Source: Actinomycetales bacterium Actino_02 | Lineage (GTDB): Bacteria > Actinomycetota > Actinomycetes > Propionibacteriales > Propionibacteriaceae | Assembly: GCA_001603275.1 (NCBI GenBank) | Contig: LUYM01000020.1 | Span: forward strand, 186,001 to 250,000 | DNA: 64,000 nt | Direction of reading: 5' to 3' | Shown: positions 10,757 to 17,402 of the stretch, piece after piece | Layout: each line of letters begins with the position of its first letter | Numbering within the stretch: the stretch's first letter is position 1 | The notes under the pieces: generated by a model | Told to the model about the DNA's origin: nothing | Databases searched by the model: none | What the model saw: the letters and a program-made list of their open reading frames with translations, nothing else | Position numbers and translations under genes: made by a program

Positions 10757-12172
10757 TCAGAGCGGGATGTTGCCGTGCAGCCCACGCTGCCCGGTGTCGG
10801 CATCGCGGATCGCTGCGGCCAGGGCGGTTCGGGTGGTCGCCGGCGTGATGATCTCGTCCACCACACCGATCTCGACGGCCTTCTCCACGCCGCCGGCGAT
10901 TCGCTCATGCTCGGCAGCCAGCTCTGCCTCCACCTGGGGCAGCATGTCCGGCGGCACCTCGGCCAGCGTGCGGCGATGCAGGATCCGGATGGCCGCCACC
11001 GGCCCCATCACGGCGATCTCAGCGCCGGGCCAGGCGAACACCCGAGTGGCGCCCAGCGAACGCGCGTTCATGGCGATGTAGCCACCGCCATAGGCCTTGC
11101 GGGTCACCAGAGTCACCCGGGGGACGGTGGCCTCCCCGAAAGCGTGCAGCAGCTTGGCGCCGCGACGGACGACGCCGTCCCACTCCTGGCCGACGCCGGG
11201 CAGGTAGCCGGGCAGGTCGACCAGCACCACCAACGGCACCCCGAAGGCGTCACAGAAGCGGACGAACCGGGCCGCCTTCTCCGCACTCAGCGAATCCAGG
11301 CAGCCGCCCAGGCGCAACGGGTTGTTGGCCACCACGCCGACGGTCCGGCCACCGAGGCGGCCCAAGGCGATGGTCACATTCGGCGCCCAGCGGGCGTGCA
11401 ACTCGAAGGTGCTGCCCTCGTCGAGGACGGCGTCGATCAGCGGATGCACGTCGTAGGCGCGCTTGGGGGAGTCCGGCAGCAGGTCGCTGAGCTCGGTGTC
11501 GGCGACCTCGCCGATCCGGCCCTGGGCGGCCAGCAGGGTGGTCACCGTGCGGGCCCGCAGCAGCGCGTCCGCCTCGTTGTCGGCGATCACGTGGGCCACT
11601 CCGGACTTTCGTCCGTGGGTGTCGGGCCCGCCCAACCGCAGCATGTCGACGTCTTCGCCGGTGACCGAGCGGACCACGTCCGGGCCGGTGACGAAGATTC
11701 GTCCGGTCGGGGCGATGATCACCACATCGGTCAGTGCGGGGCCGTAGGCGGCACCACCGGCGGCCGCGCCGAGCACCACCGAGATCTGCGGGATCTTGCC
11801 CGAGGCCTGGGTCATGGCATGGAAGATCCGGCCGACTGCATGCAGGCTGAGCACGCCCTCGGCCAGCCGGGCACCGCCGGAGTGCCAGATCCCGATGATC
11901 GGAATCCGCTCGATCATGGCCTGGCGGTACGCCTGGACGACGACCTCGCAGCCGTCGACGCCCATGGCGCCACCCATCACGGTGGCGTCGGAGCAGAACG
12001 CGACCACCCGGGAACCGTTGACGGTGCCGAGTGCGGCCAGCATGCCGGACTGGTCATCGGCGCTGATCAGCTCCAGCGAACCGGCATCGAGCAGTGCGGC
12101 CAGTCGGGCATTCGGGTTGCGCGGGTCTTCCTCGCGGGGCAGCCGGGGCGGCTTGGCAACGGCGTCAGTCAT
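10757..12172 (-). CDS. accD: acyl-CoA carboxylase carboxyltransferase (beta) subunit, AccD type
   Basis: This 471-residue carboxyltransferase moves the carboxyl group from carboxybiotin to acetyl- or propionyl-CoA, giving malonyl- or methylmalonyl-CoA. The crotonase-like double domain is full length; oxyanion glycines appear in VLGAAAGGAAYGPAL and in TRKAYGGGYIAMNAR. It is the last gene of the fab cluster, as AccD6 is in mycobacteria, so supply of malonyl-CoA to FabD is the likely role. No biotin carrier or biotin carboxylase gene is present in the window. The symbol is given at family level only; substrate preference cannot be decided by eye. Confidence 0.9.
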   Translation of the reverse strand: MTDAVAKPPRLPREEDPRNPNARLAALLDAGSLELISADDQSGMLAALGTVNGSRVVAFCSDATVMGGAMGVDGCEVVVQAYRQAMIERIPIIGIWHSGGARLAEGVLSLHAVGRIFHAMTQASGKIPQISVVLGAAAGGAAYGPALTDVVIIAPTGRIFVTGPDVVRSVTGEDVDMLRLGGPDTHGRKSGVAHVIADNEADALLRARTVTTLLAAQGRIGEVADTELSDLLPDSPKRAYDVHPLIDAVLDEGSTFELHARWAPNVTIALGRLGGRTVGVVANNPLRLGGCLDSLSAEKAARFVRFCDAFGVPLVVLVDLPGYLPGVGQEWDGVVRRGAKLLHAFGEATVPRVTLVTRKAYGGGYIAMNARSLGATRVFAWPGAEIAVMGPVAAIRILHRRTLAEVPPDMLPQVEAELAAEHERIAGGVEKAVEIGVVDEIITPATTRTALAAAIRDADTGQRGLHGNIPL

Positions 12173-12250: not shown

Positions 12251-13513
12251 TCAGCGGGTGGAGTTGGCGTTGGTGACGACGACGGCCACGTTGTGGCCGC
12301 CGAAGCCGAAGGAGTTGTTGATACCGGCCAGGTCGCCGGCGGGCAGCGGGCGAGCCACATTGGCGGCGATGTCGATGCCCAAGTCGGGCTCCGGATCCTC
12401 GAGGTTGATCGTGGGCGGCACCATCCGGTCGCGCAGGGCGAGCACGGTGGCGATGGTCTCCAGAGCGCCGGCCCCGCCCAGCAGGTGGCCGGTCATCGAC
12501 TTGGTCGACGTCACCACACAGCCGTCGGCGGCTGCGCCGAGCCCGGTCCGAATGGAGCCGGCTTCGGTGACGTCGCCCTGCGGGGTGGAGGTGCCGTGGG
12601 CGTTGACATGCTTGATGTCGGACGGGCTGAGCTTGGCGTCGGCGATGGCCTTGATCATGGCGCCGGACTGGCCTTCGCCGGTCGGATCCGGCTGCACGAT
12701 GTCGTGGCTGTCAGCGGTGATCCCGCTGCCGGCGATGGTGCCGTAGATCTTGGCGCCGCGAGCCAGGGCATGCTCGAGGGTCTCGATCACCATGACCGCC
12801 GAGCCCTCGCCCATCACGAAGCCGTCGCGACCGCGATCCCACGGCCGGGACGCGCCCTCCGGGTCGTCGTTGCGGCGGCTGACCGCCTGCATCTGGCTGA
12901 ACGCGGCCAGCGGCAGCGGATGGATGGTCGCCTCGGTGCCGCCGACCACGGCGATGTCGGCGCGGCCGAGTCGCAGCTGATCCACCGCCAAGGCGATGGC
13001 CTCGTTGGATGAGGCGCAAGCCGAGACCGGAGCGTGAACGCCGGCCTTGGCGTGGACGGCCAGGCCGACATTCGCGGCCGGCGCATTGGCCATCAGCATC
13101 GGAATGGTGAACGGGCTCACCCGGCGATAGCCCTTGTCGCGCTGGGCATCCCAGTTGTTGAGCAGTGAGTGCAGGCCGCCGATTCCGCTGGCCACCGAGA
13201 CGCTGAGCCGATGCGGATCGACCTGGCTGCCTTCGGGGGCCTCCCACTCGAAGCCGGCATCGATCCAGGCCTCTTGGGCCGCGATCAGGGCCAACTGCGT
13301 GGAGCGGTCTAGCCGACGGGCCTTCACCCGATCGATCACCGCTGAGGGGTCGACGGCGATCTGGCCGGCAATCCGGACCGGCAGGTCGGCTGCCCAGTCC
13401 TCGGTGATGGCGCTCACGCCGGAGCGTCCGGCGAGCATTCCGGCCCAGGTGGACGCCAAGTCTCCGCCCAGTGGCGTGGTGGCGCCCAGGCCGGTGATCA
13501 CGATCTCAGTCAT
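12251..13513 (-). CDS. fabF: beta-ketoacyl-ACP synthase II
   Basis: The 420-residue condensing enzyme elongates acyl-ACP with malonyl-ACP in type II fatty-acid synthesis. The catalytic cysteine lies in PVSACASSNEA, and the two catalytic histidines lie in VNAHGTSTPQGD and KSMTGHLLGGAG; the C-terminal glycine loop NSFGFGGHNV is also intact. The ATG at 13513 begins MTEIVITGLGATTPLGGD, the usual N-terminus. It lies 90 bp downstream of acpP, across a strong hairpin, and 78 bp upstream of accD. It may also correspond to a KasA-like enzyme in mycolate-free relatives. Confidence 0.95.
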   Translation of the reverse strand: MTEIVITGLGATTPLGGDLASTWAGMLAGRSGVSAITEDWAADLPVRIAGQIAVDPSAVIDRVKARRLDRSTQLALIAAQEAWIDAGFEWEAPEGSQVDPHRLSVSVASGIGGLHSLLNNWDAQRDKGYRRVSPFTIPMLMANAPAANVGLAVHAKAGVHAPVSACASSNEAIALAVDQLRLGRADIAVVGGTEATIHPLPLAAFSQMQAVSRRNDDPEGASRPWDRGRDGFVMGEGSAVMVIETLEHALARGAKIYGTIAGSGITADSHDIVQPDPTGEGQSGAMIKAIADAKLSPSDIKHVNAHGTSTPQGDVTEAGSIRTGLGAAADGCVVTSTKSMTGHLLGGAGALETIATVLALRDRMVPPTINLEDPEPDLGIDIAANVARPLPAGDLAGINNSFGFGGHNVAVVVTNANSTR

Positions 13514-13603: not shown

Positions 13604-13846
13604 TCAGCTGTGCGCTTCGATGTAGGCGACGGCGTCGCCCACGGTCTTGAGGTTCTTGGACTCCTCGTCGGGGATGGTGACCCCGAACTTCTCCTCGCAG
13701 CCGACCAGGATCTCAACCATGGCGAGGCTGTCGACGTCCAGGTCATCGACGAAGGACTTGTCCAGCTGGACGTCCTCGACGGCTACGCCGGCGACGTCGT
13801 TGACGAGCTCGGCGAGGCCGGCGCGGATCTCTTCGGTGGTGGCCAT
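13604..13846 (-). CDS. acpP: acyl carrier protein
   Basis: The 80-residue acidic protein carries the growing acyl chain in fatty-acid synthesis on a phosphopantetheine arm. The attachment serine is in DLDVDSLAMVEI, the standard DSL motif at about residue 40. The protein is predicted all-helical and has the expected family length. An AAGGAG Shine-Dalgarno sequence precedes the ATG at 13846. It sits between fabH and fabF in the fab operon, with 48 bp and 90 bp on either side. Confidence 0.97.
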   Translation of the reverse strand: MATTEEIRAGLAELVNDVAGVAVEDVQLDKSFVDDLDVDSLAMVEILVGCEEKFGVTIPDEESKNLKTVGDAVAYIEAHS

Positions 13847-13894: not shown

Positions 13895-14890
13895 TCAGGG
13901 GAGGGTGATCACCTGGCCGGAGTACACCAGCCCGGCTCCGAAGCCGATGATCAAGGCGGTTTGGCCGCTCTTGGCCTCACCGGAGCTCAGCAGGGCGTCC
14001 ATAGCCATCGGGATGGTGGCTGCGGAGTTGTTGCCGAGGTGTTGAATGGTCCGGGCTACCACGACGTGCTCAGGCAGCTTCAGGTAGCGCAGCAGGGTGT
14101 CGGTGATCCGGTTGTTGGCCTGGTGCGGGATGAACACGTCCAGCTGGTCCGGGCCGATGCCGGCGGCATCGAGTGCCTTCTTGGCGGCCCCGGCGATGAA
14201 GGTGGTCGCCCACTTGAAGACCGCGCGTCCGTCCATGCCGAGCTTGGGGAAGGTGCCCTCGGCGACGGCCTTCTGCCAGTCTGCGGTCTGCCAGATGACG
14301 CCCTCCTGGGCACCGTCCGAACCCCAGATCACCGGGCCGATCCCGTTGGTCTCGCTCGGCCCGACCACCACTGCACCGGCGCCGTCCCCGAACAGGAAGG
14401 CGGTGCCGCGGTCGGTGAGGTCGGTGATGTGGCTGATCGTCTCGCCGGCGATCACCAGGACGTACTCGGCCTGGCCGGCGCGGACGATCGACTCGGCCTG
14501 GGCCAGCGCGTAACTGAAGCCGGCGCAGGCGGCGGAGATGTCGTACGCGGCGGCGTCGCCGATGCCCAGCTCGGCGGCCAGCTTGGGAGCCAGCGCCGGG
14601 GTCTGGTGGTAGTGCGAGATCGTCGACAGGATCACCGCGCCGATCTTCGATGCCTCGATGCCGGAGCGCTCGATGGCCTTTCCGGCGGCCTCCAGGCAGA
14701 GGGTCTCGATGGTCTCGCCCTCGGCCACCCAGCGACGCTCCTTGATGCCGGTGCGCTGGGTGATCCACTCGTCGGAGGAGTCGATGAACTGCAGCAGGTA
14801 CTCGTTGTCGATGACCTTGGACGGGGTGGCCGAGCCGACGCTGAGAATGCGTGCGTACGCGGCTCCGGTGCTGGCCTTGAGTTCGGTCAC
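13895..14890 (-). CDS. fabH: beta-ketoacyl-ACP synthase III
   Basis: The 331-residue enzyme starts fatty-acid synthesis by condensing an acyl-CoA primer with malonyl-ACP. The catalytic triad is visible as Cys in ISAACAGFSYAL, His in FIPHQANNRI and Asn in HLGNNSAAT. The GTG start at 14890 overlaps the fabD stop (GTGA), so the two are translationally coupled. In actinobacteria this enzyme usually accepts branched primers, but primer choice cannot be read here. Confidence 0.95.
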   Translation of the reverse strand: MTELKASTGAAYARILSVGSATPSKVIDNEYLLQFIDSSDEWITQRTGIKERRWVAEGETIETLCLEAAGKAIERSGIEASKIGAVILSTISHYHQTPALAPKLAAELGIGDAAAYDISAACAGFSYALAQAESIVRAGQAEYVLVIAGETISHITDLTDRGTAFLFGDGAGAVVVGPSETNGIGPVIWGSDGAQEGVIWQTADWQKAVAEGTFPKLGMDGRAVFKWATTFIAGAAKKALDAAGIGPDQLDVFIPHQANNRITDTLLRYLKLPEHVVVARTIQHLGNNSAATIPMAMDALLSSGEAKSGQTALIIGFGAGLVYSGQVITLP

Positions 14891-16089
14891 TGGGCTCCTG
14901 CCTCGGTTGCGGGGTACAGCCGGATCAGCGGCTGGCCCGGGGCCACCGGGTCACCGTCCTCAACCAGCCATTCGGTAACGGTGCCATCGTGGGTGGCGCG
15001 GACCTCGACGCTGTCGCGCAGGTTCGCCGCGGTGCCGATCACGGTGCCGGCGGTGATCACCTGGCCGGTCTCGATCCCGGTGGCCTTGGCGAACTCGCCC
15101 TTGATCGGGGAGACCAACATCCGCCACGACGGCGTACTGGCCAGCGGGTTCGCCCAGCCGGCATCGCCGTGACGGGCCACGAAGTCCTGGGCGTCGGCCA
15201 GCTGATCGGGGGTGTTCAGGCTGAACAGCTCCACGCCCTTGAGGTTGCGCTTGGCGATCCCGGTCAGGGTGCCGGCCGGGGGAAGCTCGAGCAGCCCGGT
15301 GACGCCGATCTCGGCCATGGTGGCCAGGCACAGATCCCAGCGCACCGGGTTGGCCACCTGCTTGACCAGGCGAGCCAGGTATTCGCGCCCGGACTGGACG
15401 ACCTGGCCGTCGGCGTTCGACAGCAGCCGGGTGCGCGGATCGTGAGTGGTGATCGCTCGGGACAGCCGGTCGAGGTGGGCGACGGCCGGCTGCATGTGCA
15501 CCGTATGGAAGGCGCCGGCCACACTGAGCTGGATCAATCGGGCCTTGGCCGGGGGATTGGCCTGCAGGTCGGCCAACTGCTCGACGGTGCCGGCGGCGAC
15601 CACCTGTCCGGAGCCGTTGTTGTTGGCGGCAGTCAGTCCGGCAGCGGCGATGGCGGCCTGCACCTCGTCCGGATCGCCGCCGATGACAGCCATCATCGAG
15701 GTCGGACGGACGGCACTGGCTGCGGCCATCTGGGCGCCGCGCTCGCGGACGAAGACCATCGCCTGCTCGGCGGACAGCACGCCGACTGCGGCGGCTGCGG
15801 TGATCTCGCCGACGCTGTGCCCGGCGGCCACGCCGGTGCGACGGAAGCCGTCGGCAGGCTGCGGGAACAGCTCCAAAGCACTCAGTAGGCCGGCTGCCAC
15901 CAACAGCGGCTGGGCGATCGCGGTGTCCCGGATCGTCTCCGCATCGGCCTGAGTGCCGTAGTGGGCCAGATCAATTCCGGCGACCGTGGACAGCCAGTTC
16001 AGCCGATCGGCGAACCGGGGCTCCTCGAGCCACGGGGCCAGGAAGCCGGGGGTTTGAGCACCCTGTCCGGGCGCAACGATTGCAAGCAC
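14887..16089 (-). CDS. fabD: malonyl-CoA:ACP transacylase fused to a biotinyl/lipoyl-like domain
   Basis: Residues 1-290 form a normal FabD: the oxyanion motif PGQGAQ is at 7-12, the catalytic Ser is S92 in GHSVGE, and the catalytic His is H195 in GAFHTVH. The protein is 400 residues, about 90 longer than typical FabD. The extra C-terminus (about 324-393) reads as a complete barrel-sandwich hybrid: MLVSPIKGEFAKA, then ETGQVITAGTVIGT, then THDGTVTEWLVEDGDPVAPG, then QPLIRLYP. Where biotinyl domains have MKM it has NLRDS (356-360), so no lysine is available for biotin or lipoate. I chose the GTG at 16089 because VLAIVAPGQGAQ is the usual FabD N-terminus. It is the first gene of the fab operon. 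The fusion is the oddity; transacylase function is secure. Confidence 0.92.
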   Translation of the reverse strand: MLAIVAPGQGAQTPGFLAPWLEEPRFADRLNWLSTVAGIDLAHYGTQADAETIRDTAIAQPLLVAAGLLSALELFPQPADGFRRTGVAAGHSVGEITAAAAVGVLSAEQAMVFVRERGAQMAAASAVRPTSMMAVIGGDPDEVQAAIAAAGLTAANNNGSGQVVAAGTVEQLADLQANPPAKARLIQLSVAGAFHTVHMQPAVAHLDRLSRAITTHDPRTRLLSNADGQVVQSGREYLARLVKQVANPVRWDLCLATMAEIGVTGLLELPPAGTLTGIAKRNLKGVELFSLNTPDQLADAQDFVARHGDAGWANPLASTPSWRMLVSPIKGEFAKATGIETGQVITAGTVIGTAANLRDSVEVRATHDGTVTEWLVEDGDPVAPGQPLIRLYPATEAGAQ

Positions 16090-16157
16090 CCCACCACTGT
16101 GGCGAGAAATGGAACGGCGTGCGGGCCTCCGCATCACGAAAAAGCAACGGGCAATTT

Positions 16158-16223: not shown

Positions 16224-17402
16224 TCAACCGAGCAGGCGACCCAAGGTCAGTGCCAGTCGCAGCGCGTAGGCGTCCCGGGCGTCCGTTGGTGAATAACCGG
16301 TGATGTCCTGAATCCGGCGCAGGCGATAGCGCACCGTGTTCGGGTGGACGAACAGGGCTCGCGCCGTGCCCTCGATCGAGGAGTTCTGCTCGAAGAAGGA
16401 GGCCAGCGTGTCGACCAGGTCGCCTGCTGCCACCAGCGGCTGGTAGAGCTCGGTGGACAAGGCCCGCCGGGCGTGGCCGTCCCCGGCGAGAGCTCGTTCC
16501 GGCAGCAGGTCCACCGCGGCCACCGGGCGCGGTGCCTGCGGCCAGGCCGCAGCCGAGCGCAGACCCGACAGGGCTGCGCGAGCGCTGCCGACAGCCTCGC
16601 CAAGGCTGTGTACCACTGGGCCGACTACAACTTGGCCTGGACCGAACTGATCGACGAAGCCGGCCACGGTGGCCACCAGTTCGGGCGTGGACGGCAGTCG
16701 TCCGCCCAGCACCACCACCAGCCGGTCGCCCTGCGGCGCGGCCAAGACATCCAGCGACTCCGCCTGGGCTGCGGCCCGGATGCTCTCGACGGCTCGAACC
16801 GGATCCTGAGGGGCGGTGCCGATGGCCACGGCGATGTCCGGAGTGGCCAGCCAGCCCAGCGTCGAGGCGCGGGAGACGACCGACTCATCGGCGTCCCCGC
16901 GCAGCACGGCGTCGACCACCATGGCTTCCAGCCGGGTGTCCCAGGCGCCGCGCGCCTCGGCGGCGCGGGCGTACACTTTGGCGGCGGCGAAGGCGATCTC
17001 GCGGGAGTAGCGCAGGATCCCGATCCGCAAGGGGAGCTGCTCGCTCTCCGGCATGGTGGCGATCCGCTCTTCGACGGTCTCGATCGTGCTGCGGACCAGG
17101 TCCACTGTCTGGTTCAAGGCGATCCGCCGGGCCAGGGCCCGAGGTGCGGCGTCGAACGCCGCCGAGGGGTCGGCACCCTCGCCGCCGCTGGCGAACCAGC
17201 TGATGAACCCGTCGATGCCGGCTCTGGCCACCACGGTGATCCAGGAGCGGTGTTCGGCGTCCAGCTCGCCGAACCAGGGATGATCGGCCGCGATCCGGGC
17301 CAGGGCTCGAGTGGTCAGACCCGCGGCCTCGGCGCCGAGCTCGCGGGCACTGGCCGCGCGGGCCTCGGGTGCGGGCCACCAGGACTGGTCGGTGGCGGTC
17401 AT
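16224..17402 (-). CDS. fasR: PucR-family transcriptional regulator, FasR-like
   Basis: The 392-residue regulator has a C-terminal PucR helix-turn-helix: FVHPNTVRYRLRRIQDITGYSP, at about residues 348-370, is the recognition helix region. A central GGDEF-like region lies before it, and the N-terminal half is a helical sensory domain. In Streptomyces and mycobacteria the PucR-type protein encoded directly upstream of fabD, named FasR, activates the fab operon. Same strand, adjacency and a dyad site in the intergenic gap support that role here. Its ATG overlaps the stop of the small upstream gene by 4 bp. The symbol is assigned mainly by context. Confidence 0.82.
   Translation of the reverse strand: MTATDQSWWPAPEARAASARELGAEAAGLTTRALARIAADHPWFGELDAEHRSWITVVARAGIDGFISWFASGGEGADPSAAFDAAPRALARRIALNQTVDLVRSTIETVEERIATMPESEQLPLRIGILRYSREIAFAAAKVYARAAEARGAWDTRLEAMVVDAVLRGDADESVVSRASTLGWLATPDIAVAIGTAPQDPVRAVESIRAAAQAESLDVLAAPQGDRLVVVLGGRLPSTPELVATVAGFVDQFGPGQVVVGPVVHSLGEAVGSARAALSGLRSAAAWPQAPRPVAAVDLLPERALAGDGHARRALSTELYQPLVAAGDLVDTLASFFEQNSSIEGTARALFVHPNTVRYRLRRIQDITGYSPTDARDAYALRLALTLGRLLG

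Follow-up and report, generated by a model that had tools for sequence, protein, structure and literature searches.

The window analyzed here is a stretch of 64,000 nucleotides from Actinomycetales bacterium Actino_02, of the family Propionibacteriaceae (contig LUYM01000020.1, positions 186,001 to 250,000), and its minus strand carries a fatty acid synthesis operon in the order fabD, fabH, acp, fabF and accD. The subject of this study is the C-terminal extension, hereafter the tail, of the first gene product, the malonyl-coenzyme A (malonyl-CoA):acyl carrier protein (ACP) transacylase FabD, together with its relation to the last, the carboxyltransferase AccD. The features of the fabD gene, in window coordinates, are as follows.

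14887..16089, minus strand: FabD with its C-terminal extension, from the open reading frame, the Acyl_transf_1 profile and the solved relative 1nm2
15814..15816, minus strand: codon of S92, invariant in 54 aligned rows
15505..15507, minus strand: codon of H195, invariant in the same 54 rows
15127..15159, minus strand: linker, residues 311-321; the predicted local distance difference test (pLDDT) score of block 311-320 has a mean of 52
14911..15126, minus strand: biotinyl/lipoyl-like barrel-sandwich domain, residues 322-393, from Pfam, the predicted fold and fold matches
15016..15018, minus strand: codon of R358, the arginine at the biotinyl-lysine position, from alignments to biotinyl lysines and the predicted loop

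The listed open reading frame of fabD spans 14887-16137 (-) and 416 amino acids; comparison with relatives puts the probable start codon at the GTG at 16089 and the protein length at 400 amino acids. Residues 1-310 make up the acyltransferase part, and the protein scored 64.8 bits with Acyl_transf_1 (cut-off 32.7). The FabD equivalog model of NCBIfam, TIGR00128, gave 161.2 bits (cut-off 260.9) and the malonate decarboxylase epsilon model 163.2 bits (cut-off 297.9); the FabD identity is favored because of the fab operon context and because 1nm2 is the best solved relative (E 1.6e-94). An earlier, sequence-only reading of this DNA had described a normal FabD with S92 and H195 intact, and it was indeed found that neither residue, which we take to be the nucleophile and the catalytic histidine, respectively, varied across the 54-row FabD alignment. 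The solved proteins 1nm2, 2qj3 and 1mla, presumably the FabD of Streptomyces, Mycobacterium and E. coli, share the catalytic core and both residues with the window FabD, but their chains of 309-322 residues leave no room for an extra domain.

That the tail is biotinyl/lipoyl-like and folds as a barrel-sandwich had been proposed for 14911-15120, i.e., residues 324-393, although the domain begins at about W322 (15126). Both parts of the proposal were confirmed. In the profile search, the tail alone matched PF00364 (Biotin_lipoyl) with 27.0 bits and the whole protein did so with 23.8 bits, both above the cut-off of 22.1. The AlphaFold2 model of the whole protein had a mean pLDDT of 92.2 and a predicted template modeling score (pTM) of 0.78, and its tail was all-beta, with the barrel-sandwich fold of PF00364. 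Biotinyl domains were the best fold matches of the predicted tail; lower among the matches listed came efflux adaptors, together with a few further proteins of barrel-sandwich type. The linker is probably flexible, judging from the model.

The sequence-only reading had also stated that the tail lacks a modifiable lysine, and this held without exception: the position of the canonical MKM motif reads N-L-R-D in the window, and lysine was found there in 0 of 178 distinct tails, which rules out a still-modifiable carrier. Arginine occupies the position in 163 of the 178, namely in 112 of 120 tails with accD, 5 of 11 without it, and 46 of 47 for which accD could not be scored. When aligned, the biotinyl lysines of a solved 1.3S-type carrier and of two biotinyl domains from the genome of the window all fall on R358, and in the model this arginine sits in the loop joining strands 350-355 and 360-364. 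Comparison of the tail profile with the same two own-genome domains by hhalign gave a probability of 94.5 percent, but over only 38 columns and in a shifted register; the assignment of the lysine position is thus based on the 1.3S-type carrier alignment, the own-genome alignment and the model, and not on hhalign. The tail therefore lacks what defines a functional biotin or lipoyl carrier, a modifiable lysine at the hairpin tip. In this exchange of lysine for arginine it differs from the biotinyl domain of the biotin carboxyl carrier protein of acetyl-CoA carboxylase (BCCP; 1bdo, 4hr7) and from that of the mycobacterial acyl-CoA carboxylase alpha subunit (9yx1). Moreover, such a domain ordinarily bears the biotin of the carboxylase, the enzyme one step before FabD, and resides on biotin carboxylase or stands alone, whereas in the window it forms the end of FabD.

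The tail is nonetheless conserved over the 178 distinct sequences, and an E, a D and a G at three other positions are identical in 120 of 120 tails with accD. A sequencing error or wrong reading frame was ruled out, since the tail is open and conserved throughout this set. Of 14 hand-picked close pairs, one was excluded for having only 11 tail codons; in all 13 usable pairs the nonsynonymous rate (dN) of the tail was lower than the synonymous rate (dS), and in 11 of the 13 it was higher than the dN of the core. Thus, the tail changes more rapidly than the enzyme, yet it is constrained, i.e., under purifying selection.

In the family of the window, 132 of 147 genomes matched the FabD query, of which 41 aligned across the full tail (counted from the listing); the remaining 91 mostly end near residue 325, some of them being contig-end fragments or other acyltransferases. 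Across the class, the tail was found in 123 of 394 genomes and 61 of 138 genera at E 1e-10. The expected conservation in relatives was thereby upheld, restriction of the feature to the family was ruled out, and the tail is widespread but patchy in the class. Named carriers include Nocardioides, Kribbella, Jiangella, Phytoactinopolyspora and Actinopolymorpha, and also Janibacter, Granulicoccus, Nigerium, Auraticoccus and Desertihabitans. Judging from the named relatives, the source of the window is probably a Propionicimonas-like member of the Propionibacteriaceae. A phylum sample of 149 genomes, which took in the genome of the window and further members of its class, yielded at E 1e-10 one other match, in G718 outside the class, and this was an ordinary biotin carrier with the lysine in an EVMKS motif. 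Wherever the locus is complete, the tail is fused to FabD: five class matches lay in frames of at most 112 amino acids, four of them within 100 bases of the first base of the contig and one (G497) interrupted by a run of N, and all others lay in frames of at least 260 amino acids. No tail remnant was detected 3' of the stop codon in tail-less fabD loci at E up to 1. A contig labeled as a Bifidobacterium breve metagenome-assembled genome (L110) bears a tail-containing fab locus resembling that of Nocardioides and is probably misbinned.

The remaining genes of the operon are as follows.

13895..14890, minus strand: FabH, from the open reading frame and profile; its start and the FabD stop share 4 bases
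13604..13846, minus strand: acyl carrier protein, from the open reading frame and profile
12251..13513, minus strand: FabF, from the open reading frame and profile
10757..12172, minus strand: AccD-type carboxyltransferase, Carboxyl_trans 402.5 bits; its presence varies with that of the tail

The AccD carboxyltransferase thus lies in the same operon, as already noted from the sequence; accD starts about 2.7 kb beyond the FabD stop. To relate its presence to that of the tail, 302 loci were fetched (two without a fabD match), and merging of identical or contained cores left 260. The tail was called at a profile score above 30 bits, and accD above 150 bits within 4.6 kb downstream, its absence requiring at least 1.5 kb read past fabF. 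It is to be noted that the locus set is not random, since genera with variable tail presence were sampled heavily. Both features could be scored in 209 loci, of which 120 had tail and accD, 64 had neither, 11 had the tail only and 14 had accD only; 51 were unscorable. Among rows with a core at least 60 percent identical to that of the window, the corresponding numbers were 108, 50, 9 and none. Between near neighbors on the tree, tail and accD frequently both differ, as between L041 and L032, L233 and L254, L253 and L255, and the Kribbella loci L086 and L283 versus L242, L291 and L293, the Kribbella group being the one among these examples on a starred branch.

Whole-genome AccD searches covered 30 and 45 genomes, 74 different ones in all since G161 was in both. 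Of the genomes searched, 39 had neither the tail nor operon accD, and in none of these 39 did a match to AccD rise above 49 percent identity. For the 11 tail loci without operon accD, 10 genomes were searched, and nine lacked a close AccD. In G393, the fab operon has the tail and no accD, and a 60-percent AccD-like gene (C1:1811949-1813343) lies outside it. In the evenly drawn class sample of 394 genomes, with thresholds of E 1e-10 for the tail and 1e-130 for AccD, the latter chosen after the gap between orthologues and paralogues was known, 111 had tail and AccD, 12 the tail alone, 125 AccD alone and 146 neither. The tail is therefore nearly always accompanied by AccD, and AccD does not require the tail. 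Six of the 12 tail-only genomes were less than 90 percent complete, and in one of them (G374) the locus, L167, does show a partial accD at the contig end.

The link was then viewed against phylogeny by counting supported independent pairs that differ in the tail; such counts are unrooted and do not tell the order of changes or gain from loss. On a quick tree of the FabD core (209 rows, LG+G4), there were 11 pairs, in which accD on average changed the same way in 7.4, the opposite way in 0.4 and not at all in 3.2 (median p 0.016, range 0.004-0.29). The FabF tree gave 18 pairs, with 14.0 the same way, 0.1 opposite and 4.0 without difference (median p 0.0001). In the 66-row family clade, for which a careful mixture-model tree was built, the eight pairs were divided into 7.6, 0.0 and 0.4 (median p 0.008, range 0.008-0.031). 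A two-trait likelihood test favored dependence (likelihood ratio 68.8, 4 degrees of freedom, p 4e-14, a rough value given one tree and a flat root prior), with an estimated tail loss of 4.9 without accD versus 0.24 with it.

This shared coming and going of tail and accD suggests a functional coupling of the two enzymes. The tail appears to be tied to the AccD-type carboxylase, and not to FabD catalysis or ACP; the latter two persist in its absence. The explanation that we favor, with evenly balanced confidence, is that the tail is a lysine-less biotin-carrier-like domain that couples FabD to the acetyl-CoA carboxylase of the operon AccD, most likely by docking. Held by its flexible linker, the domain would bind the carboxylase much in the manner of a genuine biotinyl domain, its conserved arginine sitting at the tip that makes contact, and FabD would thereby be placed beside the site of malonyl-CoA production. 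A carrier-like domain, an arginine at the place where biotin is otherwise attached, a flexible linker and an enzyme that uses malonyl-CoA together make docking on the carboxylase the simplest reading, in which the binding, the contact surface and the handover of malonyl-CoA are what we infer. In a bolder form, offered tentatively and somewhat doubtful, a recruited carrier domain lost its lysine, and the resulting mimic would enter the AccD carboxyltransferase site arginine-first, tether FabD and let malonyl-CoA pass directly to the fatty acid synthase; in that case, AccD and the FabD dock would vary as a single functional unit across Actinomycetes. The coupling may serve handover, regulation or assembly.

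Several results weigh against this coupling. First of all, two control traits on the FabD tree lean weakly the same way as accD, namely the upstream regulator (2.9 versus 0.5, 11 pairs, median p 0.5) and fabH (2.2 versus 0.1, only 3 pairs, median p 0.5); part of the tail-accD link may therefore reflect general operon erosion, although that link is stronger than the link of the tail with either control. Secondly, in a mirror-tree analysis of 115 loci, raw correlations of the tail were 0.689 with AccD, 0.743 with the FabD core, 0.713 with FabH and 0.54 with FabF, but the partial correlation with AccD, given the core, FabH and FabF, was -0.003, while those with the FabD core and FabH were 0.323 and 0.224. 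Thirdly, AccD without a detected tail occurred in 14 loci and in 125 of the 236 class-sample genomes that have AccD, several deep lineages carry accD and no tail, and 11 loci have the tail and no accD. Lastly, the arginine does not strictly follow accD. It is missing from eight of 120 tails with accD (L058, L146, L244, L245 and the distant, eroded L174, L175, L187 and L222) and retained in five of 11 without (L036, L049, L099, L262, L288); its loss was associated with accD absence by Fisher test (p 0.0002), but the median p on independent pairs was 0.125, so that the association is only suggestive. The proposed link to AccD is thus supported by the correlated presence across the class; the docking and channeling suggested with it may apply, but the rate co-evolution test was negative and some genomes have one partner alone. 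A difference in tail scores with and without accD seemed strong, yet was rejected as confounded, because near the window accD-bearing tails are mostly equally low-scoring. The four eroded or arginine-free tails L174, L175, L187 and L222 belong to one distant family (f17) in which accD is retained, and perhaps show a tail on its way to being lost or one with an altered role.

An alternative that we consider unlikely is that the tail regulates or assembles the carboxylase, occupying or stabilizing the biotin-carrier site so that the FabD level sets carboxylase activity or assembly, with no handover of malonyl-CoA. Its model would be the plant biotin attachment domain-containing (BADC) proteins, which PMC11926652 describes as BCCP-like without the biotinylation motif, tied to the acetyl-CoA carboxylase of fatty acid synthesis and acting as inhibitors or assembly glue. 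The tail is likewise BCCP-like without that motif, and its linked presence with accD would also fit such a role. However, the BADC proteins are separate, unfused plastid proteins that are reported to act on biotin carboxylase and BCCP, whereas the tail in every complete locus is fused to the next enzyme and is linked in presence to a carboxyltransferase gene; the likeness is drawn from description and not from sequence.

It is also rather improbable that the tail works within FabD or on ACP, in stability, dimerization or carrier-protein binding, with the accD link arising incidentally as the operon erodes in certain lineages. The mirror-tree partial correlations, the arginine kept without accD and the lean of the control traits are all in keeping with such a role, but the accD link exceeds that of either control, FabD lacking a full-tail alignment is common in the family (the above 91 of 132 genomes), and the model shows a flexible linker and not one compact unit (pTM 0.78, linker pLDDT about 52). 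A decaying, functionless relic of a fused biotin carrier, for which the lost lysine and the eroded distant tails (L187, 47 bits; L222, 41 bits) could be cited, is very improbable in the face of residues invariant or nearly so across the class, a dN below dS in all usable pairs and the lack of tail remnants past the stop of tail-less loci.

Among known systems, the mycobacterial fasII operon, in the order fabD, acpM, kasA, kasB and accD6, resembles the window in uniting FabD with an AccD-type carboxyltransferase in a single operon, and a similar layout is seen in L217-L219, but FabD of these loci has no tail. PMC4014462 places accD6 in the fasII operon with kasB upstream of it. In the portion of PMC10863985 at hand, malonyl-CoA goes from the carboxylase to FabD, and no contact between the two is reported. 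A literature search found no description of the fusion or of FabD-carboxylase coupling among the matches listed from open-licence papers, which does not prove its absence. To our knowledge, direct handover of malonyl-CoA from acetyl-CoA carboxylase to the dissociated type II fatty acid synthase is an unsettled matter, and close relatives with and without the tail and matching AccD offer evolution's built-in test of it. Should the tail indeed bind the carboxylase, it would represent a natural module for the coupling of two central enzymes, and bacteria would have arrived at a lysine-free mimic of a biotin domain by another route than plants.

Malonyl-CoA can presumably be made without the operon AccD, since 59 of 60 genomes of both kinds have an ACC_epsilon match above the cut-off, and its coordinates usually place it next to a carboxyltransferase about 47 percent identical to the operon AccD. 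In the own genome (G000), an ACC_epsilon gene lies beside the 47-percent AccD paralogue at C6:637679-639222, and the two are probably its second acyl-CoA carboxylase. Directly upstream of fabD, at 16224-17402 (-) of the window, is a PucR-type regulator (HTH_30 and GGDEF_2), which is found there in 182 of 206 scored rows. In L231, L235 and L251, acp follows fabD directly, with no fabH between them; nine of 209 rows have no fabH at that place.
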